From: Pseudoscardovia radai
GTDB lineage: Bacteria; Actinomycetota; Actinomycetes; Actinomycetales; Bifidobacteriaceae
NCBI RefSeq assembly: GCF_002259605.1
Contig: NZ_MWWR01000018.1
Span: 1 to 64,000 of the forward strand
DNA: 64,000 nucleotides
Direction: 5' to 3'
A program made the translations under genes and the position numbers. Numbering within the stretch: the stretch's first letter is position 1; each line of letters begins with the position of its first letter. This document shows positions 42,462 through 48,899 of this stretch, one piece after another. The notes beneath the pieces were generated by a model, which did no database searches, had not been told where the DNA came from, and was given only the letters and a program-made list of their open reading frames with translations.

Positions 42462-43354
42462 TGGGATCGGTGCATGAGGATGCGGCATCGCATGGCGTCG
42501 GCGTGCCGGTGCTCGAGGTGCGGCATGTCGTGAAGACTTTCTCCGGTGGGCGTGGCGTCGGGCATGCCACGTCGCACGATGCGCCGCGCGCCGTGGACGA
42601 TGTGAGCTTCGCGGTGGCGGCCGGCGAGTCGCTTGCCGTCATCGGCGAATCCGGTTCAGGAAAAACAACCGTCACCCGTATCGCCTTCGGCCTTCTGTCG
42701 CCGGACTCGGGCGACGTGCTGTTCCGCGGCGAATCCGTGGATGCGACCCGGCGCCATCGTGGTGTGCCGCGGCCTGGTACGCTGCGGCACGGCGTGCCGC
42801 GGCGAGATGTCGCAACCGCCGATGCGCGACGGGAACTGCGCCTTGGCAGCGGCATCGTGTTCCAGGACCCCTTCGCCTCCCTCGACCCGCGCTGGCGCAT
42901 CCGGCGCAGCGTCGCCGAACCCCTGACGGCGCGCGGCATCGGGCGCACCGATGCCTTGGCGCGCGCGGACGGGGCGTTGCGCTCCGTGGGGCTCGACCCC
43001 ACGCTGTTCGGCGAACGGTACCCGCAGGATCTTTCCGGCGGTCAGGCGCAGCGCGCGGCGATCGCCCGGGCGCTGGTCACGAGGCCGCGCATCCTGCTCG
43101 CCGATGAGCCGATGAGCGCCATCGACGTGACCTCGCGCATCCAGATATTGGATACCTTCCGTGCCATCCGTGCCGCGGATCCGTCGATGGCCATGGTCGT
43201 GGTGCTGCACGATCTGGGAATCGTGCGCATGATCGCCGACCGCGTGCTCGTGATGCACGATGGGCGCATCGTGGAATCCGGAACGGTGGACGCCGTGCTC
43301 ACCGCGCCGCGCGACCCCTACACCCGCACCCTCGTCGCCGCCGCCACGATGTAG
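42461..43354 (+). CDS. Peptide ABC transporter ATPase, DppF type
   Basis: Second ATPase of the operon. Walker A GESGSGKTTVTRI, Q-loop VFQDPFASLDPRWRIRRSV, signature LSGGQAQRAAIARA, Walker B ILLADEPMSAIDVTSRI (Met-Ser where Thr-Ser is usual), H-loop VVVLHDLGIVRMI. An insertion of about 30 residues between Walker A and the Q-loop (RHRGVPRPGTLRHGVPRRD) is unusual and Arg-rich. The ATG overlaps the dppD stop by one base. It ends the operon. Downstream is the cysteine-regulated gene set with its own promoter. Confidence 0.9.
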   Translation: MGSVHEDAASHGVGVPVLEVRHVVKTFSGGRGVGHATSHDAPRAVDDVSFAVAAGESLAVIGESGSGKTTVTRIAFGLLSPDSGDVLFRGESVDATRRHRGVPRPGTLRHGVPRRDVATADARRELRLGSGIVFQDPFASLDPRWRIRRSVAEPLTARGIGRTDALARADGALRSVGLDPTLFGERYPQDLSGGQAQRAAIARALVTRPRILLADEPMSAIDVTSRIQILDTFRAIRAADPSMAMVVVLHDLGIVRMIADRVLVMHDGRIVESGTVDAVLTAPRDPYTRTLVAAATM

Positions 43355-43411: not shown

Positions 43412-43441
43412 TTAACGGGGGCGGGAATCATGTGGTATAGT
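43412..43441 (+). promoter_or_regulatory. Promoter of the transsulfuration operon
   Basis: TTAACG (43412-43417), 18-bp spacer, TATAGT (43436-43441). Transcription would start at about 43448, one base before the leader-peptide ATG, so the leader is probably translated leaderless. Confidence 0.6.
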
Positions 43442-43448
43442 CGCAATT

Positions 43449-43481
43449 ATGAAGTTCAATTTCTCGTGTTGTTGTCGCTAA
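43449..43481 (+). CDS. Cysteine leader peptide MKFNFSCCCR
   Basis: A 10-codon ORF with three consecutive TGT Cys codons near its end, followed by TAA, directly downstream of a -10 box and upstream of the cystathionine beta-synthase and gamma-lyase genes. Poly-Cys leader ORFs are known to control cysteine genes in other actinobacteria such as mycobacteria. Ribosomes would stall at the TGT codons when cysteinyl-tRNA is scarce and change the folding of the RNA behind. The chance of CCC in a leader this well placed is small, so the call is fairly firm despite the short length. Confidence 0.75.
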   Translation: MKFNFSCCCR

Positions 43482-43550
43482 CGACGCCAGCCGGTGGCTG
43501 TGCGTCGCGTGACGCATACCAGAATTGAACGATGTCTTACCCGATCGGGT
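43454..43550 (+). promoter_or_regulatory. Attenuator-type RNA with mutually exclusive stems
   Basis: Stem P1: GTTCAATT (43454-43461, within the leader ORF) with AATTGAAC (43523-43530). Inside: CGACGC (43482-43487) can pair with GCGTCG (43502-43507), closing over AGCC-GGT-GGCT (43489-43499); alternatively TGCGTC (43501-43506) pairs with GACGCA (43511-43516). The two use the same GCGTC bases, so only one can form. ACCCGATCGGGT at 43539-43550 is a further palindrome. A ribosome stalled on the Cys codons at 43467-43475 would break P1. No known SAM riboswitch pattern is seen. Confidence 0.65.
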
Positions 43551-43774
43551 TTCATCTCCTGACAGCGAATCCGCACCCATCCGAGGCGGAATTCGGAATT
43601 CAGGCACTCTTATATGCGCGGCGACTGCCAGCCTTACACGCACGGCGAACGGACTCCATCATCGTCGGGCCTTGGGGACCGCCGATGGGCGCGGATCGCG
43701 GATTGCATGTCGCGCTTCGCACCACCCGTCACAGACCATAAACTTGAACCAGGAAAACAGGTAAGGCACATATC
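43551..43774. other. Leader downstream of the attenuator
   Basis: About 220 nt of untranslated leader before the first structural gene. No stem ending in a T-run is evident, so control could be at translation or by rho rather than by an intrinsic terminator. AGGTAAGGCACATATC holds the ribosome site. Confidence 0.4.
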
Positions 43775-44845
43775 ATGAAGATCGCACAGAAGGTCACGGA
43801 TCTCATCGGCAACACCCCGCTCGTCGAGCTGCACAAGGTCACGGAGGGCATCGATGCCCGCATCGTGGTGAAGGTGGAGTACTTCAACCCCGGCGGCTCG
43901 AGCAAGGACCGCATCGCGGAGCGCATCATCGACGCGGCGGAGCGCGAGGGCAAGCTTCAACCCGGCGGTACCATCGTGGAACCCACGAGCGGCAACACGG
44001 GCGTCGGCCTCGCGCTCGTCGCCCAGCAGCGCGGATACCATGCGGTATTCGTGGTGCCCGAGAAGGTGAACGAAGACAAGCGCGCGGTGCTGCGCTCCTA
44101 CGGCGCCACCGTGGTGGTGACCCCGAACGTCGAGCCCGACGACCCGCGTTCCTACTACAACGTTTCCGACCGCCTCGCCGAACTCATCCCCGGCGGCTTC
44201 AAGCCCAACCAGTACTTCAACTCCAACGGCCCCGAAAGCCACTATCGCACCACCGGCCCGGAGATCTGGCGCGACACCGACGGCAAGGTCACGCATTTCG
44301 TGGCAGGCATGGGCACCTGCGGCACGATGATGGGCACGAGCAAATACCTCAAGGAGGTGTCGAACGGCGCGGTACGCGCCATCGGCGCCGATCCGGACGG
44401 CTCGATCTTCTCGAATCCGCAGGATGTGCACGGCTACAAGGTGGAGGGCGTCGGCGAGGACTTCTACCCGGGCATCTATGACCCCTCGCTCGTCGACGGC
44501 TTCTACCATGTCTCCGACCTCGAGGCCTTCGCCATGTCCCGCCGCCTGTCGCGCGAGGAGGGCCTGCTCGTGGGCGGCTCCAGCGGCATGGCCGTGGCCG
44601 GCGCACTGAAGATGGCGAAGGCGGAGAAGCTGACGAAGGACGACCTCGTGGTCGTGCTCCTTCCTGATTCCGGCCGCAGCTACATGTCGACGATTTTCAA
44701 CGACCAGTGGCTGGAGGCCAACGGCTTCGGCAAGATCCTCAACGACGAGAAGGCCGCGCTCGGCGACGACGACTCGCAGCGGACCATCGACAACACGATC
44801 GCTCAGGTGCTGGCGGACGCGAACGCCCGGGCGGCGGCGAAGTGA
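43775..44845 (+). CDS. cbs: Cystathionine beta-synthase (no CBS regulatory domain)
   Basis: PLP enzyme joining homocysteine and serine to cystathionine. The fold is that of the CBS/cysteine synthase family: EYFNPGGSSKDRIAER with the PLP Lys, EPTSGNTGVGLALVAQQRGY and GTCGTMMGTSKYLKE. Several blocks match CBS better than O-acetylserine sulfhydrylase: GADPDGSIFSNPQD, YKVEGVGEDFYPGIYD and LPDSGRSYMSTIFNDQWLEANGF. 356 residues with no C-terminal CBS domain pair. It would often be annotated cysK. First gene behind the poly-Cys leader, followed 92 bp later by cystathionine gamma-lyase, a pairing that supports reverse transsulfuration. Confidence 0.88.
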   Translation: MKIAQKVTDLIGNTPLVELHKVTEGIDARIVVKVEYFNPGGSSKDRIAERIIDAAEREGKLQPGGTIVEPTSGNTGVGLALVAQQRGYHAVFVVPEKVNEDKRAVLRSYGATVVVTPNVEPDDPRSYYNVSDRLAELIPGGFKPNQYFNSNGPESHYRTTGPEIWRDTDGKVTHFVAGMGTCGTMMGTSKYLKEVSNGAVRAIGADPDGSIFSNPQDVHGYKVEGVGEDFYPGIYDPSLVDGFYHVSDLEAFAMSRRLSREEGLLVGGSSGMAVAGALKMAKAEKLTKDDLVVVLLPDSGRSYMSTIFNDQWLEANGFGKILNDEKAALGDDDSQRTIDNTIAQVLADANARAAAK

Positions 44846-44937: not shown

Positions 44938-46122
44938 ATGACCACCGATTTCTCCCAGGACGCCATCGCAACCCGCGCCATCCACGCCGGCCAGGAGCCG
45001 GATCCCACGACGGGCGCCGTCGTGCCGCCGATCTACATGACGAGCACCTTCAAGCAGCCGCATGTGGGCCAGCCGGTCAACGGCTATGACTACAGCCGCT
45101 CCATCAACCCCACGCGCAACGTGTTCGACGAGCAGCTCGCCGCCATCGAGGGTGCGAAGCACGCGCTCGCGTTCTCCTCGGGCCTGGCCGCCATCGATGT
45201 GCTGCTGCGCTCCGTGCTCAGGCCGGGAGACCGCGTCATGCTGGGCAACGATGTGTACGGCGGCACCTACCGCCTCCTCTCGAAGGTGTTCGTTCCGTGG
45301 GGCGTGAACATCACCACCGTCGACGTGTCCGACCTCGCCGCCGTGAACAAGGCGCTGAACTCCGAAAGCTTCGCCCTGATCTGGATCGAGACGCCGTCCA
45401 ACCCGCTGCTTGCCGTCACCGACATCGCGGCGACCGCGGCCATCGCCCACGAGCACGGCATGACCGTCGTGGTCGACAACACCTTCGCCTCGCCCGCCCT
45501 GCAGCATCCGCTCGAGCTGGGCGCCGACGTGGTGGCGTACTCCACCACCAAGTACATCGGCGGCCACTCCGACGTGGTGGGCGGCGCTCTGGTGCTCAAC
45601 GATGACGAACTGGCCGAGAAGTTCGCGTTCCTGCAGAACTCCGCCGGCGCCGTGCCGTCCCCGTTCGACTCCTGGATCCAGATCCGCGGCCTGAAGACCC
45701 TGCCGCTGCGCATGCAGCGTCACTCCGAGAACGCCCTGGCCATCGCCCGGCACCTCGAGGAGCTCAAGAACAAGGGCGAGGGCATCGAGCAGGTGTGGTA
45801 CCCGGGTCTCGAATCGCATCCGGGCCATGACATCGCGGCACGCCAGATGCACGGCGGCTTCGGCGGTATGATTTCCGTGCAGCTGAGCGGCGGCAAGGCG
45901 GCGGCGCTGAAATTCGCCGAGTCCACGCGCCTGTTCACGCTGGCCGAGTCGCTGGGCGGCGTCGAATCCCTGATCGAGCATCCGGCCGCCATGACGCACG
46001 CCTCCGTGTCCGGCACGAGCAACGAGGTGCCCGACAACCTCGTGCGCATCTCCGTGGGCATCGAGGACGTCAACGACCTCATCGCAGACCTCGACCAGGC
46101 CCTCGCCGCCGCAACGAAGTAA
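44938..46122 (+). CDS. mccB: Cystathionine gamma-lyase / gamma-synthase family enzyme
   Basis: Cys/Met metabolism PLP enzyme, 394 residues. YSRSINPTRNVFDEQLAAIEG, SSGLAAIDVLLRSVLRPGDRV, WIETPSNPLLAVTDI, VVDNTFASPALQHPLELGADVV and YSTTKYIGGHSDVVGG (PLP Lys in STTKY) are the family blocks. Sequence alone hardly separates gamma-lyase from gamma-synthase, but its partner cystathionine beta-synthase and the Cys leader favour the lyase, which releases cysteine, ammonia and 2-oxobutyrate. CGTAAGGACAGACC precedes the ATG. Same operon as the preceding gene. Confidence 0.9.
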   Translation: MTTDFSQDAIATRAIHAGQEPDPTTGAVVPPIYMTSTFKQPHVGQPVNGYDYSRSINPTRNVFDEQLAAIEGAKHALAFSSGLAAIDVLLRSVLRPGDRVMLGNDVYGGTYRLLSKVFVPWGVNITTVDVSDLAAVNKALNSESFALIWIETPSNPLLAVTDIAATAAIAHEHGMTVVVDNTFASPALQHPLELGADVVAYSTTKYIGGHSDVVGGALVLNDDELAEKFAFLQNSAGAVPSPFDSWIQIRGLKTLPLRMQRHSENALAIARHLEELKNKGEGIEQVWYPGLESHPGHDIAARQMHGGFGGMISVQLSGGKAAALKFAESTRLFTLAESLGGVESLIEHPAAMTHASVSGTSNEVPDNLVRISVGIEDVNDLIADLDQALAAATK

Positions 46123-46176
46123 GGCGCCGCGCCGTATGCCGGCGACGGCCGTGCGCCGATGACGGAAGGGACGTGC

Positions 46177-48168
46177 ATGGACGGGCAGACCACACCGCAG
46201 GCCGGGAACGCGCGGCAGACCGCGGCGCCGCCGCGCGAAAGCCGGGTCGGCGGCATCGACAAGGCCCGGCGCGTGCTCAAGCGCGTCTACGGCTACGATT
46301 CCTTCCGCTCCGGCCAGGAGGACGTCATCTCCTCGATCCTCGGACGCCATGACACCGTGGCCATCATGCCGACCGGCGCCGGAAAATCCCTGTGCTACCA
46401 GATCCCGGCGCTGATGCTCGCCGGGGTCATGGGCGGCCCCGGCATCGGCATGAGCATCGTTATCTCGCCGCTGAAATCGTTGATGAGAGACCAGGTCTCG
46501 GCGCTCCAGGCCGTCGGCGTCAGCGCCAGCTACCTCAATTCCTCCCTCGCCCCCGAGGACGAGGCGCGCGTCATGGCCGACATCGCGCATCACCGCGTCA
46601 CCCTGCTCTACTGCGCGCCCGAGCGCCTCGTGCGCCGCGACTTCCGCGAACTCATCGCCGCCACGCCCGTGGCCTTGGTCGCCGTCGACGAGGCGCATTG
46701 CGTCAGCCAGTGGGGCCACGATTTCCGCCCCGAGTACCGGCAGATCCGCGACTTCCTCGAGACCTGCACGCCCCGCGCCGTCGTCGCGGCCTTCACGGCC
46801 ACCGCCACCGAGCATGTGCGCGAGGATATCGTCAGCGCCCTCGGTCTGCGCGACCCCGCGCAGTTCAAGACCTCCTTCGACCGTCCGAACCTGTGGTTCG
46901 GCACGAAGAAGCTGCCCCGCCGCGCCAAGGACGACTGGATCGTCTCCTTCGCCCGTGACCACGCCGACCAGTCGGGAATCGTGTACTGCGCCTCGCGCCG
47001 TGAAACCGAGGAACTCGCCGACGCCCTCGCGCAGGCCGGCATCAATGCGGCCGCCTACCACGCGGGTCTTCCCGACGAGCGCCGCAGCGCCGTGCAGGAC
47101 GCCTTCATCGACGACGACATCCGCGTCATCGTGGCGACGAACGCCTTCGGCATGGGCATCGACAAGCCCGACGTGCGCTACGTGCTGCACCACAACATGC
47201 CTTCGAGCATCGAGGAATACTACCAGGAGGCGGGCCGCGCCGGCCGCGACGGCGACCCCGGACGCTGCATGCTGCTATGGAACGACGGAGATGTGTCGTT
47301 CCGCACGCGCCAGATCGACAACACCGACCGCGAGGGTGACATGCCCGACGCCGACCGCCAGATGCTGCGCACGTCACGGCACGACCTGCTCAACGCCATG
47401 ATCGGCTACTGCGGCACCACCGGCTGCCTGCGCGCCTCGCTGCTCGGGTATTTCGGCGAGACGGCGCCGCGCGAATGCGGCAACTGCTCGAACTGCGACG
47501 GCGAATTCGAATCGGTCGACGTGACGCGCGAGGCGGTGCAGGTCATGCGGTGCGTGCAGGACCTGGGCCAGCGGGTGGGCAAGGGCACGGTGGCGTCGGT
47601 GTTGCACGGCGCGCAGTCCGAGGCCGTGGCGAAGCGCGGCTACGACCGGGCGCCGTCCTACGGGGCGCTGCGGTCGAGCTCGCTGCCTTTCGTCAAGGAC
47701 GTGATCGCGCAGATGGTGGCCGACGGGTATCTGGCGGTGCATATGAGCAACGGCGCGTATCCCGTGCTCGTGTTCGGGCCGCGCGCGGACGATGCGGCGC
47801 GCGGGGACTTCCACTACGAGATCAAGCGCGAGGCCGCGCATACCGGCTCCGGCGGCTCCGGACGCGGTTCGGGCTCCGGCTGGCGCGACGGCGGGATGTA
47901 CGGCGCCTCCTCGCGCGTCGAGACTGCGAAACTCAGCGACCCGGAGCTGTTCGACCGGTTGCGCGAGCTGCGCTCCGCCATCGCGAAGGAAAGCGGCAAG
48001 CCGCCGTATATGGTGTTCAACGACCGCTCCCTGCGCGAGATGGCCGAGCTCAAGCCGACCGACGCCGACGCGTTCCTCGCCATCAACGGCGTGGGCGAAC
48101 GCAAGCTCGAGGCCTACGGCGAGCGCTTCATGGAGGCCATTCGCGGCTACATGGCCGACAAAGGCTGA
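46177..48168 (+). CDS. recQ: ATP-dependent DNA helicase RecQ
   Basis: 3'-5' helicase in recombination repair. Motifs: GYDSFRSGQEDVISSIL (motif 0), MPTGAGKSLCYQIP (I), DEAHCVSQWGHDFRPEY (II), FTATATEHVREDI (III), TNAFGMGIDKPDVRYVLH (V) and QEAGRAGRDGDPG (VI). Zinc-binding Cys are in CGTTGCLRASLLGYF and CGNCSNCDG; a winged helix follows and an HRDC domain ends the protein (ELFDRLRELRSAIAKESGKPPYMVF). A Gly/Ser linker (GSGGSGRGSGSG) joins the last two. ATG 46177 is taken since GGAAGGGACGTGC precedes it; the ATG at 46159 has no site. 663 residues. Confidence 0.95.
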   Translation: MDGQTTPQAGNARQTAAPPRESRVGGIDKARRVLKRVYGYDSFRSGQEDVISSILGRHDTVAIMPTGAGKSLCYQIPALMLAGVMGGPGIGMSIVISPLKSLMRDQVSALQAVGVSASYLNSSLAPEDEARVMADIAHHRVTLLYCAPERLVRRDFRELIAATPVALVAVDEAHCVSQWGHDFRPEYRQIRDFLETCTPRAVVAAFTATATEHVREDIVSALGLRDPAQFKTSFDRPNLWFGTKKLPRRAKDDWIVSFARDHADQSGIVYCASRRETEELADALAQAGINAAAYHAGLPDERRSAVQDAFIDDDIRVIVATNAFGMGIDKPDVRYVLHHNMPSSIEEYYQEAGRAGRDGDPGRCMLLWNDGDVSFRTRQIDNTDREGDMPDADRQMLRTSRHDLLNAMIGYCGTTGCLRASLLGYFGETAPRECGNCSNCDGEFESVDVTREAVQVMRCVQDLGQRVGKGTVASVLHGAQSEAVAKRGYDRAPSYGALRSSSLPFVKDVIAQMVADGYLAVHMSNGAYPVLVFGPRADDAARGDFHYEIKREAAHTGSGGSGRGSGSGWRDGGMYGASSRVETAKLSDPELFDRLRELRSAIAKESGKPPYMVFNDRSLREMAELKPTDADAFLAINGVGERKLEAYGERFMEAIRGYMADKG

Positions 48169-48377
48169 CGATGGTGCGGGGCTGACGATGGCGCGGGCGG
48201 CGGCACCGCGAGGAGCCGGCGGCACGGGGCTGATGGCGGCGCGGGGCAGCGGCACGGGTTATAGCGATTCCCGATAGCCTTCCGGCGTGGCAGGCCGCGC
48301 CGGGCGGAATAATGGACACAGAAACGATTCCACCGAATTCATGCGGGCGGCATGCGGCCGCCCGGAAAGGAGAACAC

Positions 48378-48899
48378 ATGGCCCAGGGCACGGATACCGC
48401 GCAGACGAACCAGGCCGATAACAAGCCGGTTCCCGAGAGCTTCACCCTCGACCACACCACGGTCAAGGCGCCGTACGTGCGCCTCATCGACGTGGAGCAG
48501 GGGCCGAAGGGCGACGAGATCTCGAACTTCGACCTGCGCCTCGTGCAGCCGAACGAGAACGCCATCCCCACCGGCGGCCTGCATACGATCGAGCACACGA
48601 TCGCCGTGACGCTGCGCGAACGCATCCCCGGCTACATCGACTGCTCCCCGTTCGGCTGCCGCACGGGCTTCCACCTGCTGGCATGGGGCCGTCCCACGCC
48701 GCACGACGTGGCCGTCGCGCTCAAGGAGTCGCTCGAGTTCATTGCGTACAAGGCCACGTGGGACGATGTCCCGGCGCATGACATCAAGAGCTGCGGCAAC
48801 TACCGCGACCATTCGTTGTTCACGGCCAAGGAGTGGGCCAAGAAGATCCTTGACGAGGGCATCAGCGCCGACGCCTGGGACCGTTCGCAGGTCGTCTGA
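48378..48899 (+). CDS. luxS: S-ribosylhomocysteine lyase (LuxS)
   Basis: Splits S-ribosylhomocysteine into homocysteine and DPD, the precursor of autoinducer-2. Metal ligands are the HTIEH motif ([14 protein letters not shown]) and Cys in [10 protein letters not shown]; catalytic Cys is in [15 protein letters not shown]. 173 residues. ATG 48378 follows AAAGGAGAACAC. The homocysteine produced is the substrate of the cystathionine beta-synthase encoded 3.5 kb upstream, so this region groups methyl-cycle recycling with cysteine synthesis; recQ lies between by common bifidobacterial order. Confidence 0.96.

Follow-up and report, generated by a model that had tools for sequence, protein, structure and literature searches.

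A putative cysteine-sensing leader and RNA relay ahead of cbs in Pseudoscardovia radai and other Bifidobacteriaceae

How might a ten-residue open reading frame (ORF) with three adjacent cysteine codons govern the genes behind it? This question is raised by the window analysed here (i.e., a stretch of 64,000 nt from Pseudoscardovia radai), in which such an ORF precedes, on the forward strand, a gene for a cystathionine beta-synthase-like PLP enzyme (cbs; 43775-44845, PF00291). The first-pass annotation of this DNA had proposed a poly-cysteine leader peptide and an attenuator controlling reverse transsulfuration.

The ORF and hairpin ahead of cbs

The cbs product has NCBIfam TIGR01137 as its best match in that collection (471.5 bits, under the cutoff of 510). 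Since its alignment spans only positions 1-329 of the 457-position NCBIfam cystathionine beta-synthase model, it is without the C-terminal part of that model, and PF00291 is its only Pfam match. Behind cbs, and on the same strand, lie a cgl/metB-like gene for a PLP enzyme of Cys/Met metabolism (cgl; 44938-46122, PF01053, with NCBIfam NF005871 above its cutoff) and subsequently recQ and luxS (together 46159-48899; luxS encodes S-ribosylhomocysteine lyase). The poly-Cys leader is placed in front of cysteine/sulfur genes (cbs, then cgl). On its other side, the gene of an ABC transporter ATPase has its end at 43354.

A promoter-like sequence (43412-43441, forward strand) consists of TTAACG, an 18-nt spacer and a TG-extended TATAGT box (43436-43441), and one such site was present at the leader against 0.3 expected in shuffled sequences. 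The box is separated by 7 nt from the ATG of the leader ORF (43449-43481, forward strand; ATG AAG TTC AAT TTC TCG TGT TGT TGT CGC TAA), which encodes MKFNFSCCCR and is of the leaderless type. Because of this promoter spacing, transcription would begin at the leader AUG or within about 1 nt of it.

Most of the leader ORF is part of a hairpin. The three TGT codons (43467-43475) lie within the 5' arm of its outer stem (43454-43478), and an inner hairpin (43482-43507; -18.2 kcal/mol alone) follows immediately 3' of the leader stop codon. The 3' side of the hairpin extends from 43496 to 43530, with 43511-43530 pairing with the 5' arm, and all of these elements are on the forward strand. More specifically, the inner stem pairs CGACGC (43482-43487) with GCGTCG (43502-43507), a competing stem pairs TGCGTC (43501-43506) with GACGCA (43511-43516), and a closing stem pairs GTTCAATT (43454-43461) with AATTGAAC (43523-43530). 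The RNA from 43442 to 43560 folds at -47.4 kcal/mol, compared to -30.8 +/- 3.6 kcal/mol for its shuffles (z -4.57), none of the 200 shuffles being as good. The ORF behind its TATAGT box and each of the stems described in the first-pass annotation, including the closing stem with its left arm in the leader ORF, were thus found in place, although the range that had been assigned to them (43449-43550) proved too short, since the functional element runs to the cbs start at 43775.

The pattern TGYTGYTGY followed by 0-6 nt and TRA occurs 34 times in the P. radai genome. Among the 30 of these loci that were examined, the cbs leader was the sole short ORF (with an ATG, GTG or TTG start) behind a TANNNT box, and no further copies of the leader were found among them. 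Rfam covariance models matched only a tRNA in the window, and an Rfam search of five loci returned only an implausible sub-threshold miRNA match.

Distribution of the leader

A search for cbs across 189 Bifidobacteriaceae genomes matched 97 of them, from which 99 cbs upstream regions were taken. A Cys leader, i.e., a counterpart of the P. radai ORF, was present upstream of cbs at 97 of these 99 loci, corresponding to 96 of the 97 genomes with cbs. A strict scan for at least three adjacent Cys codons accounted for 92 of the 99, and manual reading added another five (L102, L115, L117, L138 and L151). The leader was not found at L114 and L119. One contig (G039:C1) has two cbs copies, L118 and L119, about 2.5 kb apart, with a leader before the first only.

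Leader peptides mostly read M-x(3)-S-CCC(C)-R-stop, with a run of three to five Cys codons near the stop codon at the 97 loci that is interrupted in only one of them (L151, CCRCC). Among these Cys codons, TGT (294) is far commoner than TGC (20), whereas ten window ORFs have 6 TGT and 52 TGC. In 64 of the 92 scanned leaders the distance from the end of the box TGNTANNNT to the leader ATG is exactly 7 nt; it is 6, 8 or 10 nt in 10, and the box is absent in 18. A distance of 7 nt matches the expectation for a leaderless mRNA and argues for a leaderless-type start of the poly-Cys ORF. The spacer between leader and cbs measures 182-459 nt in most relatives (293 nt from the leader stop codon in P. 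radai). At L137, L140 and L159 the leader lies 83-109 nt before cbs and the usual 3' arm is missing, which perhaps represents a shorter, simpler form of the switch.

Poly-Cys leaders were also encountered elsewhere. Twenty places in relatives that match a Cys-Cys-Cys-Arg-stop pattern were read, two of which (L189 and L190) turned out to be the cbs leaders of G097 and G112, located further upstream. Two others, L177 (G073:C4) and L178 (G081:C1), contain a second leader (MNFVLCCCR* and MNFMLCCCR*, respectively), which lies on the reverse strand close to base 980, has TGTGCTACCGT in front of it and is followed after roughly 300 nt by a gene for an SDF-family (PF00375) symporter that, we presume, could serve cystine uptake. 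These two cases possibly indicate that some bifidobacteria have a regulon of Cys leaders. The remaining pattern places look like chance matches. Finally, many cbs genes of Cryobacterium (Microbacteriaceae) carry GTG-started leaders about 95-112 nt upstream (e.g., VPVHSSCCCCR*; loci L042-L044, L049-L051, L053, L055, L058 and L061), and the arrangement therefore extends beyond the Bifidobacteriaceae.

Competing helices between leader and cbs

About 130 nt downstream of the P. radai leader lies a block, AUGCGCGGCGACUGCCAGCCUUAC (43614-43637, forward strand), that includes an anti-Shine-Dalgarno (anti-SD) sequence, GCCUUAC (43631-43637). This sequence is complementary to the Shine-Dalgarno (SD) region of cbs, GUAAGGC (43761-43767, forward strand), over 7 bp (-12.0 kcal/mol). 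As far as CAGCC, the same block can also pair with the 3' side of the leader hairpin, where GGCUG (43496-43500), GUCGC (43504-43508) and CGCAU (43513-43517) are the segments involved; the energy of this pairing is -27.0 to -28.4 kcal/mol in four Pseudoscardovia and -28.4 kcal/mol in P. radai. There are thus three competing helices, i.e., 5' arm:3' arm, 3' arm:anti-SD block and anti-SD:SD.

In an alignment of the upstream regions (UTRs) of these four Pseudoscardovia (the window and three other genomes of the genus), columns were identical at 27/33 positions in the leader ORF, 51/53 in the inner hairpin and 3' arm, 21/24 in the block (43614-43637) and 17/21 from the SD to the ATG, compared to 20/79 and 17/119 in the spacers flanking the block. 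The layout is therefore one of conserved hairpin, variable spacer, conserved block, variable spacer and conserved SD. In other clades, both strands of the SD:anti-SD pairing have changed and still match each other, as in GAAACG/CGUUUC, GAUAACGAG/CUCGUUAUU, AUGAGAC/GUCUCAU, GGAACC/GGUUCC, CGAGACG/CGUCUCG and AAGGACU/AGUCCUU. Moreover, the 3' arm differs according to how many Cys codons there are and which third base they have: CAAC stands just 5' of a GCAU-type motif in 13 of 22 leaders with at least four Cys codons and TGT as the third, compared to 1 of 13 with TGC as the third and 5 of 52 with three Cys codons.

RNAalifold yielded no consensus pairs on a MAFFT alignment (A1) of 59 of the 77 distinct sequences, probably because three- and four-Cys leaders put the arms out of register, and this consensus was replaced by folding of single sequences and by a swap test. 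In the latter, own partners were compared with swapped ones over 54 UTR clusters and 5000 permutations, the clustering removing close relatives while deeper relatedness remains. Own partners scored better for 5' arm x 3' arm (-21.03 vs. -18.19), for 3' arm x UTR (-40.85 vs. -34.66) and for the SD x UTR stem score (16.18 vs. 13.55), with none of the 5000 permutations as extreme in any of these three comparisons. No excess of own pairing was seen in control pairings of the 3' arm with coding sequence (P 0.50) or upstream DNA (P 0.43), of the SD with coding sequence (P 0.65), upstream DNA (P 0.12) or reversed UTR (P 0.53), or of the 5' arm with reversed 3' arm (P 0.14) or UTR (P 0.85). In the 3' arm x reversed UTR control, own partners did have an advantage, if a smaller one (-32.91 vs. 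-31.31, i.e., -1.6; P 0.0006), and part of the 3' arm signal is therefore base composition. Of 85 single sequences, 28 had an anti-SD that beat its shuffles (p<0.05), 15 had a 40-nt arm duplex past z -2, and 41, against 23.5 expected, had an overlap between these segments. Since the single-sequence signals are weaker, the case for a relay rests on comparison, in which all three helices co-evolve.

The first-pass proposal had been open to refutation by a lack of conservation of the leader or its stems, and it survived: the leader recurs throughout the family and the stems co-evolve. A Cys-sensing leader before cbs-cgl is strongly supported at the sequence level by the S-CCC(C)-R-stop peptide, the leaderless-type spacing and a structure that co-evolves with the Cys codons, and we infer that the cysteinyl-tRNA level would directly set cbs and cgl expression. 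What the term attenuator had lacked was a named output, and this would be an anti-SD/SD relay acting on translation and extending 230 nt past the range of the first-pass annotation. No intrinsic terminator was found in this region of the window.

We consider a cysteine-responsive translational attenuator, operating as a three-helix relay, to be the probable mechanism. With ample Cys-tRNA, the ribosome would clear the leader and the hairpin would close (-38.7 kcal/mol), leaving the anti-SD block free to cover the SD (-12.0 kcal/mol) and switching cbs off, together with cgl via coupling or polarity. With scarce Cys-tRNA, a ribosome stalled on UGU UGU UGU would block the outer stem, and the freed 3' side, at -28.4 kcal/mol compared to -18.2 kcal/mol for an inner hairpin on its own, could capture the anti-SD block while the SD is still to be transcribed, in which case the SD would stay open and cbs would be translated.

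This scheme was modelled by barring pairing in the leader up to 12 nt beyond the A-site base. Two of the 92 leaders (L127 and L162) were left out as their cbs start codon was not found. For the anti-SD, which was picked by SD complementarity alone, transcripts were cut just past it; 20 of the remaining 90 loci gave no row, either because the 3' arm was unrecognisable, the search range was too short or no stem scored >=13 at -175 to -70. With a stall at the first Cys codon (Cys1), the cost of opening the anti-SD changed by a mean of +3.37 kcal/mol (53 of 70 up, 5 down), and for cluster representatives by 2.93 (34 of 44 up, 2 down), compared to +0.07 for 397 control segments (65 up, 48 down) and -0.06 to 0.82 for the best pseudo-anti-SD in four shuffles of the UTRs. 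In full UTRs, the SD became cheaper to open with the same stall in 59 of 90 cases and costlier in 10. Among the 85 usable for shuffling, 56 went down and 8 up (mean -1.53 vs. -0.13 to -0.34 in shuffles), and the unstalled SD was more closed than in shuffles (5.50 vs. 3.56). Five of the 90 are without a recognisable 3' arm (L137, L140, L149, L153 and L159; spacers of 83-205 nt), and here the stall lowered SD opening in three and raised it in two.

For P. radai, a Cys1 stall on the cut transcript increased the arm:block pairs from 0.4 to 19.7 and reduced the outer-stem pairs from 20.2 to 0. At full-length equilibrium the same stall raised P(anti-SD:SD) from 0.71 to 0.98, and this value fell only with Cys3 in the A site (0.03) or with the ribosome at the Arg (0.01) or stop codon (0.03). 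At the Pseudoscardovia loci L002 and L004 it was at least 0.91 in every ribosome state, and at L003 it fell only at Arg (0.44) and stop (0.70). Full-length equilibrium folding with a Cys1 stall thus did not open the SD in any of the four Pseudoscardovia. A ribosome-binding site covered by structure that a stall would relieve is indicated family-wide by folding and co-evolution; within Pseudoscardovia the cut transcripts point to it, and the full-length ones, folded to equilibrium with the stall at Cys1, do not. Because this stall leaves the SD closed at equilibrium, the switch in Pseudoscardovia must be kinetic, i.e., co-transcriptional. The model would need an arm:block helix that forms before the SD is transcribed and then persists, which is plausible for a helix of 18-20 pairs.

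Extended to the whole family, the reading becomes that of a kinetic RNA relay in which the 3' arm has two roles, closing over the Cys codons and imitating a Shine-Dalgarno sequence, and could catch the anti-SD ahead of the appearance of the real SD. Each mRNA would then commit to on or off during transcription, by the position of one ribosome on three or four Cys codons. On this wider claim our judgement is evenly divided.

Alternative readings and known systems

The long spacer between leader and cbs in most relatives would also suit Rho-dependent transcription attenuation, in which the ribosome on the leader decides on Rho loading in the 293-nt stretch before cbs, as was proposed for the Bifidobacterium longum cbs leader in the part of Seliverstov et al. 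2005 (PMC1262725) consulted here. Since this mechanism does not predict co-evolving SD:anti-SD and 3' arm:anti-SD pairing, we regard it as unlikely to be the main device, although Rho termination may be a secondary effect on untranslated cbs that is compatible with the relay. An intrinsic terminator serving classical transcription attenuation of the trp/his operon type would account for a leader peptide and competing hairpins, and a terminator-like site does occur in the UTR of 11 of 90 relatives vs. 3 of 90 mononucleotide-shuffled UTRs. Nevertheless, there is none in the other 79, and no site with a G+C hairpin and U run was found in the window between 43300 and 43800, which makes this reading very improbable.

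The main role of the hairpin could instead lie in the stability of the mRNA or in the leader's own translation, with a signal other than cysteine. A closed hairpin, whose 5' arm takes in most of the leader ORF, would indeed hinder leaderless initiation, but the run of three to five Cys codons and the placement before a cysteine-synthesis gene would then be left unexplained, and we think this quite unlikely. Ten-codon ORFs are common, and yet a chance pairing of ORF and hairpin is refuted by conservation at 97 of 99 loci, and the fold z of -4.57 also speaks against it, leaving it scarcely credible.

In erm-type translational attenuation (cf. the ermC leader), a stalled ribosome frees a sequestered SD through competing stems. 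The relay resembles it in that a leader-stalled ribosome and competing stems would free the SD, and differs in its signal, which is an antibiotic-stalled ribosome for erm and is proposed to be a starved codon in Pseudoscardovia.

Closer relatives are found among Cys-rich leaders. Such leaders have been reported before cbs of B. longum and before cys operons of mycobacteria and Propionibacterium acnes, and, in the consulted part of that report, the mycobacterial regions are described as having no conserved hairpins able to be terminators, and the B. longum leader as having no other attenuator elements, its mode of regulation being left open with Rho as a suggestion (Seliverstov et al. 2005, PMC1262725). 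With the same gene and the same kind of leader ORF, the P. radai element is the Pseudoscardovia counterpart of the B. longum one. Compared to that prediction as far as consulted, a hairpin, an anti-SD block and an SD pairing are now identified across Bifidobacteriaceae. The regulation of cysteine synthesis from methionine in bifidobacteria was left open in 2005, and the relay would supply the missing attenuator parts and pinpoint bases for mutation, i.e., the Cys codons, the 3' arm, the anti-SD and the SD. A search of the literature by title and the start of the abstract, with thin coverage of subscription journals, found no mechanism for the bifidobacterial Cys leader beyond the work of 2005 and 2020, and the relay is undescribed as far as these searches show.

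The 2020 work concerns cysteine-responsive attenuation by poly-Cys leaderless ORFs in Mycobacterium smegmatis (Canestrari et al. 2020, Mol Microbiol 114:93), a system known here from citing passages. According to these, it shares with the present element a leaderless ORF, adjacent Cys codons and sulfur genes behind them, and translation of the downstream gene depends on the speed of the ribosome through the Cys codons, as is likewise proposed here. Taxon and gene are different (cbs of Bifidobacteriaceae), and the present proposal has an explicit long-range relay, with an anti-SD about 75-165 nt before cbs that would be captured by the 3' arm. The relay suggests that translational cysteine attenuation reaches beyond mycobacteria, including the symporter leader in two relatives. 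The leader before cbs corresponds to a known prediction, and the relay is best read as a variant of the mycobacterial poly-Cys attenuators.
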